From positions 1 through 64,000 of the forward strand of contig JAIQGI010000026.1 in the NCBI GenBank assembly GCA_020072565.1: a stretch of 64,000 nt of DNA, written 5' to 3'. The translations under genes and the position numbers were made by a program. Each line of letters opens with the position of its first letter. Position 1 is the first letter of the stretch. This stretch comes from Terriglobia bacterium. GTDB lineage: Bacteria; Acidobacteriota; UBA6911. Under the pieces are notes generated by a model that worked only from the letters and a program-made list of their open reading frames with translations, did no database searches and had not been told where the DNA came from. Of this stretch, positions 14,458 to 41,181 are shown in pieces.

Positions 14458-16026
14458 CTAGTTTGGCTGCCTTATATAGTAAGCTCGAATCCAGCTGTCC
14501 AACGTGGCCGAGGGATCCTGAATCACCTCTGCGGTGATCTCAAAGTGACTGATGCCCCTCGTCTTCCGGATCAGGTTCAATCCGTGTTCGTAGTTCTTGA
14601 AGGTTTCCTCGAAAATCTCCTCCATCTTCCTTCCGCAGTCGACAGCCTTTTGGGCCAACAGTTGTACTGCCTCCGGTTGCAGGTGAATTTCGATTCCGTT
14701 CCGCTCGGACCACTGTTCGGCGATCTTCTCAATCCTGCGCTTCAGGTAATCCTGTTCCTCCTGCGCGGAGACCTGCCGGATCTGCTCCAGCACCTGCAAA
14801 GGCGAGTCCACGAGTTCCGCAGTCACTTCGAGTCTGCGCACCGTGGAATGGGGAAGGTGGTACTTGAACTCCCGGAAAGTCCGCTCGCAGACGCTGACCA
14901 GACTGCGTGCCCCAGTCTGTTCCAGATAAGCTTTTTCGGCCAGCCGATGCAGTCCCTCGTCTGTAAAGACGATCTCGATCCCGTAGGCCTCGAATGCCTG
15001 GACATACTGACGGATGATCGATCCCTCCGAGTGTTTCAGAATCTGAAACAGGTCCTCGACTCCCAGCTCCTGGCATCCCACAACCACAGGCAGGCGACCG
15101 ATGAATTCGGATTCAAATCCGTATTCGATAAAATCGGTGCTCTTGACATATGACAGACAGTCCTCATCCTTGAGCGATGAAGCGAATCCGCTCCGGAATC
15201 CAATCCGCTGCGCCCCCACGCGCTTGCGGATGATCGGAATCAGACCGCTGAAGGCTCCACTCACGATAAAGAGGATATGCCGGGTATTGATGACCGGGCG
15301 GGCGACCTTCCCTTTTGACTGAAACTCCATCGCTGCCTGCAATTGCGAGGTCAGGTCGAACGGAGTGCGCAAGCTGACTTCGGTTTCTTCCATCAGCTTC
15401 AGCAAACCGCGCTGCACCCCGCCGCCACTTACGTCGCGCCCCAGAATGTTGCTTGGCGTTGCGATCTTGTCGATCTCGTCCAGGTAGATGATTCCGTACT
15501 CTGCGAGCCGTATGTTGCCGTCCGCTTTCTGAACCAGCTCGCGCACGAGATCCTCAACGTCCCCACCCACATACCCGGTTTCCGAGAATTTGGTGGCGTC
15601 GGCCTTGACGAAAGGGACTCCGATCAGATCCGCGATGGTGCGTACCAAGTAGGTCTTGCCGACGCCGGTCGGCCCCAGCATGATGATGTTCTGCTTGGAA
15701 TATTCTTTGCAGTGACCGCTGCTCGAACATTGCTTTATGTGGTTGTAATGGTCACAGATCGCCGTGGCCAAGACTTTTTTTGCGCCGTCCTGCTTAATGA
15801 CAAAACGATCGAGATAGCTCTTGATGTCGCGCGGCAGATATTCGAAATGCAGGTCCAGAGGAGCCTCGACAGTTTCCGTTCCTTCGTCCGCCGTTCTGGC
15901 TTGATCAGGGTGGGCGGTCATCATGCCCAGCTGTACGCGGTCTCCATATTTGCGGGAAAAGAACTCCTCCATGTCTCGTCGCAGTTCCTCCGGATTCGGC
16001 CAGACAGGGGTAGGATCCTTAGGCAA
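14458..16026 (-). CDS. ClpX-like AAA+ ATPase with duplicated C-terminal small domain
   Basis: A ClpX/HslU-class unfoldase; residues are numbered from the upstream GTG at 16065. It has Walker A GPTGVGKT (131-138), Walker B IIYLDEID (192-199), EFIGRLP (320-326) and a sensor-2-like GARSL (385-389). The ClpX zinc-binding N-domain is absent. An RIGF tripeptide context at 287-290 aligns with the IGF loop by which ClpX docks ClpP. The C-terminal small domain appears twice: GIEIVFTDEGLHRLAEKA (362-379) recurs as GIEIHLQPEAVQLLAQKA (457-474), and LEVTAELVDSP recurs as FEITAEVIQDP. The TTG at 16026 is chosen because a perfect AGGAGG lies 9 nt upstream; the GTG at 16065 has no ribosome binding site. The substrate is unknown. 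Confidence 0.85.
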   Translation of the reverse strand: MPKDPTPVWPNPEELRRDMEEFFSRKYGDRVQLGMMTAHPDQARTADEGTETVEAPLDLHFEYLPRDIKSYLDRFVIKQDGAKKVLATAICDHYNHIKQCSSSGHCKEYSKQNIIMLGPTGVGKTYLVRTIADLIGVPFVKADATKFSETGYVGGDVEDLVRELVQKADGNIRLAEYGIIYLDEIDKIATPSNILGRDVSGGGVQRGLLKLMEETEVSLRTPFDLTSQLQAAMEFQSKGKVARPVINTRHILFIVSGAFSGLIPIIRKRVGAQRIGFRSGFASSLKDEDCLSYVKSTDFIEYGFESEFIGRLPVVVGCQELGVEDLFQILKHSEGSIIRQYVQAFEAYGIEIVFTDEGLHRLAEKAYLEQTGARSLVSVCERTFREFKYHLPHSTVRRLEVTAELVDSPLQVLEQIRQVSAQEEQDYLKRRIEKIAEQWSERNGIEIHLQPEAVQLLAQKAVDCGRKMEEIFEETFKNYEHGLNLIRKTRGISHFEITAEVIQDPSATLDSWIRAYYIRQPN

Positions 16027-16035
16027 TGAAGTAAG

Positions 16036-16041
16036 CCTCCT
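16036..16041 (-). promoter_or_regulatory. AGGAGG Shine-Dalgarno deciding a TTG start
   Basis: On the minus strand AGGAGG is followed by nine nucleotides and TTG (16026-16024). It lies inside the longer open frame, which argues that the upstream GTG at 16065 is not the start of the ClpX-like protein. Confidence 0.6.
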
Positions 16042-16145
16042 AAATTCAATAACTTCCGAAAGCACCCAAGATAGGGCTTCTTTCTAAGTATGAGATTTTT
16101 CAGGCGAAAAAGCAATCACTGGAGGAATCGGAGATGCGCTTGCCG

Positions 16146-39709: not shown

Positions 39710-39831
39710 AGCCCCACCTCGACTAGAACCGGCTCGGATAAACCTGCCGGCCATCGGCCGCCCGGGTGCGGGAAAGGAATCTGCTGGAAGTGCGTAGACG
39801 TCATGCAACCCCTGCCCGAGGGCTCGACGAA

Positions 39832-41181
39832 ATGTCGCCCCGCGAGATTGTTGCTGAGCTCGATCGCTACGTGGTCGGGCAACAGGAAGCCAAGAAGGCG
39901 GTTGCGATCGCACTGCGCAATCGCGTCCGGCGCCAAAAGCTGGATGAGGAGATGGCGGAGGAGGTCGCACCCAAGAACATCATCATGATCGGCCCGACCG
40001 GCGTGGGGAAGACCGAAATCGCACGCCGGCTCGCGCGCCTAGCCAACTCTCCGTTTCTGAAAGTCGAGGCTACGAAATACACCGAGGTCGGCTACGTCGG
40101 CAGGGACGTCGAATCGATGATCCGTGACCTGGTAGAGACAGCCGTCGACATGGTTCGAATTGAACGCATTACGGAAGTCGCGGAGACGGCAGAACGCAAT
40201 GCGGAAGAGCGCGTCCTTGATCTCCTTTTGTCCGGTCTTCAGCCCATGCCCGGGGAGAGCGGGTCCGGCAACGCGAGCAAGGATCGCGATCTCGTCGAGC
40301 GCCTGCGCGAGAAATTGCGTAAGCAGCTGCGGGCGGGCAGGTTAGACCAACGCGTCATCGAGATGGAAGTCCGGGAGCATCCCATGAGCCCCTTTGCTTT
40401 TCAAGTTTTCGAAGGTGCGAGCATGGAGGAGATCCAGTTCAACATGAAGGATCTGATCACCGGCATGATGGAGGGCAAGCCCAAAAAACGCCATATGCGG
40501 GTAGACGAGGCTCTGGACTACCTTGAGCAGGAGGAAGAGCAAAAGCTGGTTGACATGGAGCAGGTTGCCAGGATCGCGCTCGACCGCGTCGAGGATAACG
40601 GCATTATCTTTTTGGATGAGATCGACAAGATCTCCGGGCGCGAGAGCGGCCATGGTCCGGACGTGAGCCGCGAAGGGGTGCAGCGCGACATCCTCCCGAT
40701 CGTGGAGGGCACCAGTGTCAACACCCGGTACGGCATGGTCCGCACCGATCACATCCTTTTTATAGCTGCGGGCGCGTTTCACGTGTCCAAGCCGTCCGAC
40801 CTCATTCCCGAAATTCAGGGGCGCTTTCCGATTCGCGTGGAGATGAAGACTCTGGCCCAGGACGATTTCGTCCGCATCCTCACCGAACCCAGGAACGCCC
40901 TGATCAAGCAATACGTGGCGCTACTGAAGACCGAGGGAGTGAAGCTCCGGTTTGAAGAAGATGCCATCCGCGAAATCGCGCGCATGGCGTGCCTCGTGAA
41001 CGACAGTTCTGAGAACATCGGCGCCCGCCGCCTGCACACTATGATGGAGGCGCTGCTGGAGAACATCCTTTTCAAGGGGAGTGAGTTGACAACGAAAACC
41101 GTCCGGATCGACGCAGAATATGTGCGCCATAAACTAGGCGACATTGTGGCCGACAAGGACACCAGCCGGTACATCCTGTAA
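39832..41181 (+). CDS. hslU: ATP-dependent protease ATPase subunit HslU
   Basis: A 449-residue AAA+ unfoldase that feeds HslV. It starts MSPREIVAELDRYVVGQ as in the family. Walker A GPTGVGKT is at 54-61, and EATKYTEVGYVGRDVESMIRDL follows. A long intermediate (I) domain covers about 90-230. Walker B IIFLDEIDKI, then QGRFPIRVEM and GARRLHTMME (sensor 2) follow, and the C-terminus DTSRYIL docks into HslV. The ATG at 39832 has GAGGG upstream; in-frame codons to 39766 are not conserved. Its stop overlaps the next ATG (TAATG). Confidence 0.96.
   Translation: MSPREIVAELDRYVVGQQEAKKAVAIALRNRVRRQKLDEEMAEEVAPKNIIMIGPTGVGKTEIARRLARLANSPFLKVEATKYTEVGYVGRDVESMIRDLVETAVDMVRIERITEVAETAERNAEERVLDLLLSGLQPMPGESGSGNASKDRDLVERLREKLRKQLRAGRLDQRVIEMEVREHPMSPFAFQVFEGASMEEIQFNMKDLITGMMEGKPKKRHMRVDEALDYLEQEEEQKLVDMEQVARIALDRVEDNGIIFLDEIDKISGRESGHGPDVSREGVQRDILPIVEGTSVNTRYGMVRTDHILFIAAGAFHVSKPSDLIPEIQGRFPIRVEMKTLAQDDFVRILTEPRNALIKQYVALLKTEGVKLRFEEDAIREIARMACLVNDSSENIGARRLHTMMEALLENILFKGSELTTKTVRIDAEYVRHKLGDIVADKDTSRYIL

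Follow-up and report, generated by a model that had tools for sequence, protein, structure and literature searches.

A conserved ClpX subfamily with a tandem small domain is found over several phyla

The AAA+ protease ClpXP serves as a model system, and its specificity is usually put down to the zinc domain of ClpX, its RKH loop, and adaptors. According to two published accounts, the ClpX hexamer is held together by packing of the small domain of one subunit on the large domain of the next, IGF loops dock ClpP, the RKH and pore-1 loops touch the ssrA tag, and the zinc domains serve substrates and adaptors (PMC7112951, PMC9035409). The closest studied case that we found to the protein described here is M. 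xanthus ClpX3 (MXAN_2743), which we compared by its published description. ClpX3 is reported to have neither the N-terminal domain nor the RKH motif; it is encoded by an isolated gene in a genome that also holds a canonical clpX, and its deletion weakens growth at 36 degrees (PMC11423568). ClpX3 may be a relative of our protein. We found no description of a ClpX with two small domains in the open-licence literature searched.

The gene analysed here lies on a contig of a Terriglobia bacterium (JAIQGI010000026.1), within a stretch of 64,000 nucleotides that we refer to as the window; its features are collected in Table 1. The minus-strand reading frame is open up to a GTG at 16065 (ORF 14458-16065), and a TTG codon is found further in at 16026-16024, with an AGGAGG hexamer at 16041-16036, nine bases upstream. 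In our alignment the relatives also start shortly ahead of the PxPEEL motif. On account of the hexamer and the fit with the starts of relatives, we take 16026 to be the better start, which upholds the original coordinates and gives a protein of about 522 residues. Residue numbers are counted from the GTG and are 13 higher than those counted from the TTG. Counts for the family refer to alignment A1, which comprises the window protein and 54 of 76 full-length candidates (55 members), and are compared with 12 rows of canonical ClpX.

Table 1. Coordinates of the ClpX-like gene and its features in the window
Feature	Residues	Position	Strand	Evidence
ClpX-like unfoldase gene	522 aa + stop	14458..16026	minus	TTG start; ORF, AGGAGG, family evidence
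N-terminal segment replacing the zinc domain	23-56	15898..15999	minus	PxPEEL motif and one helix; conservation, AlphaFold
Large AAA+ domain	75-334	15064..15843	minus	Pfam, structural relatives
Walker A, GPTGVGKT	131-138	15652..15675	minus	K137 and T138 in 55/55
Pore-1 loop, GYVG	164-167	15565..15576	minus	55/55
Walker B, IYLDEI	193-198	15472..15489	minus	D196 and E197 in 55/55
Longer loop at the site of the ClpX RKH loop	230-263	15277..15378	minus	Alignment; RKH 0/55
IGF motif, ClpP-docking loop of ClpX	288-290	15196..15204	minus	IGF 49/55, [ILMV]GF 54/55
First small AAA+ domain	335-421	14803..15063	minus	Sensor-2 GAR at 14905-14913
Second, tandem small domain with leading long helix	422-535	14461..14802	minus	Profile alignments, AlphaFold, structural matches

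The AAA+ core of the protein is that of a ClpX in the broad sense, with Walker motifs, a GYVG pore loop, and a sensor-2 GAR that is kept in all 55 family members. Pfam matches AAA_2 and ClpB_D2-small, the best solved relatives by sequence profile are ClpX entries (E=2.2e-72), and structural alignment of the AlphaFold model (mean pLDDT 77.1) to ClpX reaches a Z of 34.4 over 333 residues among the matches listed. The protein nevertheless scores below the cut-offs of both ClpX equivalog models, NF003745 (332.7 vs 359) and TIGR00382 (294.6 vs 370.75). With canonical ClpX, as defined by these models, it shares a core that is about 40% identical, the GYVG and GAR motifs, and the IGF loop, but it differs in having no zinc domain, no RKH motif, a longer loop at that site and a tandem small domain, and in forming a clade of its own. 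It resembles HslU in lacking a zinc domain, in its related fold (Z up to 29.4 among the matches listed), and in the stretch ahead of the ILFI strand, which looks HslU-like; unlike HslU, it has no I-domain and possesses an IGF loop in the alignment, and its score against the HslU model is below the cut-off (209.2 vs 362.45). A separate HslU-like gene is encoded on the plus strand of the window at 39826-41130.

Two of the elements to which the specificity of canonical ClpX is usually put down are missing from this family. As originally predicted, the N-terminal Cys4 domain is absent: the protein has no Pfam match to the ClpX C4 zinc domain (PF06689), and the zinc pattern, which 11 of the 12 canonical rows carry within their first 80 residues, occurs in 0/55 members. 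AlphaFold predicts a helix in its place (residues 25-40) at low confidence. The RKH motif, present in 12/12 canonical rows, is likewise found in no family member, and the stretch at its site is 30-37 residues long (49 members measured, 6 not) vs 23 in canonical ClpX (10 measured, 2 not). Within this replacement loop Asp237 is invariant and Gln241 and Gln243 are nearly invariant across the 55-member alignment. The RIGF sequence aligns with the ClpP-docking loop of ClpX, as had been proposed, and the [ILMV]GF pattern is also found in 9 of the 12 canonical rows.

The genome encodes a single ClpP, which adjoins a zinc-domain ClpX in the order tig-clpP-clpX, tig being a name read from its putative product; this locus, for which a search had originally been suggested, lies elsewhere than the window gene. 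Zinc-domain ClpX was found in 43 of the 46 carrier genomes tested, and so in most carriers the protein is an added ClpX, not a replacement. ClpP was found in 34 of 35 carriers. The genomes in which we found no zinc-domain ClpX (G073, G094 and G146) or no ClpP (G083) are perhaps incomplete. G073 has a single, divergent ClpP, and no ClpX-like gene lies on the stretch fetched for it (L153). A second strong ClpP (E <=5.6e-63) is found apart from the first in G075, G077, G079 and G082, and that of G075 (L160), the one inspected, has no ClpX-like neighbour. Elsewhere in the Terriglobia genome (contig C41, locus L002, 1321-2019, minus strand), a 232-248 residue ORF contains two tandem ClpX-type C4 zinc domains and no AAA+ domain; the segment ahead of them looks like a helix-turn-helix.

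We consider it likely that the gene product is a divergent unfoldase of the ClpX type that works with the single ClpP of the genome as a second partner beside canonical ClpX; the retention of the IGF loop while the RKH and zinc elements are gone argues for a partner of ClpP that takes other clients. The original prediction had offered two options, a specialised ClpP partner or a free unfoldase, with a ring geometry that may be altered. The near-universal IGF-type motif (54/55 members), the canonical clpP-clpX locus and the lone ClpP favour the former; the latter is weakened, as it is the docking motif that has been kept and the zinc domain and RKH loop that have not. A chaperone or remodeller that works without ClpP, as a free ring of the ClpX type bearing two tiers of small domains, would agree with a gene that is unlinked to clpP, with the missing zinc domain and RKH loop, and with the carrier in which no ClpP was found, but we judge it unlikely given that the IGF-type motif persists over several phyla, including in four members that have only a single small domain.

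The C-terminus holds the second feature that sets the family apart. Two pairs of similar sequences recur at a spacing of about 95 residues, as first noticed in the original prediction, and the duplication of the small domain proposed from them is borne out by three comparisons. First, profiles of residues 335-432 and 433-535, each built from the 55 members, align with a probability of 98.8% (E=1.4e-16, score 86.5) over 78 columns at 27% identity, compared with E-values of 0.11 to 0.37 for three control pairs of segments. Second, against the small domains of the 12 canonical rows the second segment scores 50.5 (E=2.1e-9). Of 40 column-shuffled versions of this segment, none scored above 19.4 with the first small domain or above 17.1 with the canonical ones; the likeness of the tandem copy is beyond chance. 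Third, when the isolated second segment was submitted to a structural aligner, all 50 matches listed were ClpX or HslU (Z 7.6-9.4).

In the AlphaFold model, residues 335-535 agree with these comparisons. Helices and strands follow one another in the second segment as they do in the first, in blocks with a pLDDT of about 80-88, and residues 430-535 are thus neither an unrelated nor a disordered fold in the model; one long helix, residues 422-456, joins the two small domains, and the second segment folded alone has a pLDDT of 80.4. Where the first small domain has GAR, the profile alignment places a gap in the second. The letters GAR occur past residue 432 in 4/55 members, within the linker helix in the rows inspected. 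Searching this genome with the second-domain profile returned three places only, which are its own position, the first small domain and, as a weak match (E=0.008), the C-terminus of canonical ClpX. The higher score against its own first small domain than against canonical ClpX (86.5 vs 50.5, from profiles of different depths) points to an origin of the second small domain by internal duplication.

The protein is a member of a conserved ClpX subfamily with a tandem small domain, spread over several phyla. We identified at least 80 loci, with 99 relatives found in one scan, and among the matches listed are records named Acidobacteria, Verrucomicrobia, Poribacteria, Planctomycetota and Omnitrophota, as well as Kiritimatiellae, Bdellovibrionia, Deltaproteobacteria and Pseudomonadota. 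Distribution is uneven. A copy scoring above 400 bits was found in 29 of 60 relatives (this genome included), all of them in the class of the window (29/38, vs 0/22 in other classes of the phylum), and one genome of the same genus (G001) is without such a copy. At E <=1e-80, carriers account for 25/115 genomes in the phylum of G062, 3/99 in that of G081, 1/78 in that of G070 and 7/9 in that of G084; at 1e-75, they account for 17/58 genomes in the G073 set.

For the phylogeny, 152 sequences were reduced to 129 distinct cores and, after thinning at 78% identity, to 73. In this quick tree, which carries SH-aLRT support only, is midpoint-rooted and has HslU on a very long branch, the whole family forms one clade (SH-aLRT 99) separate from 10 canonical ClpX proteins (98) and from HslU. 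The four members with a single small domain (L127, L129, L143 and L144) are placed within the tandem rows, and three changes are needed to account for them, one of which is forced by the starred branches. This nesting suggests that the family probably began with the tandem form, which some members later lost. A free-standing second small domain was not found in the short-form genomes: in G108, G109 and G104 the second-domain profile matched nothing beyond the first small domain of the gene itself, and in G115 it had no match, which argues that the domain was lost and not split off. In the phylum of G084, seven members (L130, L131 and L134-L138) have an extra half-copy between the first and second small domains, ahead of the latter (E=3e-10 over 55 residues in L131; profile score 53.6 over 49 columns, 7 sequences). 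The loss of the RKH loop, the multi-phylum family and the single-domain members all go beyond what was originally seen.

The second segment is less conserved than the protein as a whole (mean column identity 24% vs 45%) and is missing from four members, as might be expected of a passive, functionless tail. We regard such a tail as improbable, since the fold and nearly invariant positions are kept over several phyla and, to judge from the tree, the family seems to have started out with the tandem form. That the segment is an unrelated domain resembling a small domain by chance is very hard to maintain: Pfam ClpB_D2-small falls below its cut-off on the second copy alone (15.2 vs 21.9 bits; 12.1-16.6 bits in 4 of 10 isolated second copies and none listed in the other 6), Foldseek E-values are >=0.1 (although the 50 matches listed are all ClpX or HslU), and the best match of the second-domain profile among PDB sequences is a 44-position segment of DnaK (E=5.9e-4) with ClpX behind it (E=0.35), but the 78-column profile alignment, the independent match to canonical ClpX, and the exclusive presence of ClpX and HslU among the 50 structural matches listed all stand against it. 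The DnaK match spans positions 20-63 of that profile, corresponding to the first half of the domain, and is probably a local convergence, given that structural and profile comparisons both point to a small domain.

Returning to a second ClpX-type unfoldase that serves ClpP, we propose that the protein would form a hexamer that docks ClpP through its IGF loops and threads clients by its GYVG loops. These clients would be other than ssrA-tagged proteins and may be chosen through the family's own N-terminal segment and the longer loop at the pore entrance. The least certain step is the part played by the second small domain, which would most likely be a rigid outer module on the ring, either firming the contacts between subunits or binding clients, adaptors or ClpP. 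As the alignment shows no sensor-2 motif in it, we would not expect it to complete a nucleotide site and therefore read its role as structural or docking; as single-small-domain members exist, it is not needed for the core function.

We also considered the genomic setting of the gene. It does not adjoin clpP in the window, and we discarded a conserved operon, as the neighbours vary from phylum to phylum. In Verrucomicrobia the gene is often followed downstream by a membrane protein (38 loci), then by genes that we take, from their sequences, to encode a putative RecR (35) and LipA (27); none of the three was seen beside the gene in the window. Heat-shock control via CIRCE was ruled out, with no element in the window at up to 3 mismatches, and promoter and terminator scans gave results at chance level. 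A role in anti-phage defence was dropped, as no PADLOC family was matched. Carriage by plasmids or phages was also rejected: the 67 plasmid and 66 phage matches were all below 60% identity, none covered 80% of the query, and the annotated plasmid or phage records among the matches listed are canonical clpX.

Tentatively, and with rather less than even confidence, we suggest that these proteins are a widespread, unnamed ClpX-type branch in which the small domain was doubled once, early, so that the AAA+ ring gained an outer tier and ClpP a second range of clients; one group would then have added a half-copy and others lost the tier, which would make the small domain a repeatable building block. 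This natural branch, without zinc domain and RKH loop and with an IGF loop and a doubled small domain, shows these elements apart from one another. The part of each in ring assembly and client choice can be tested on it directly, and the natural single-small-domain members provide the comparison.
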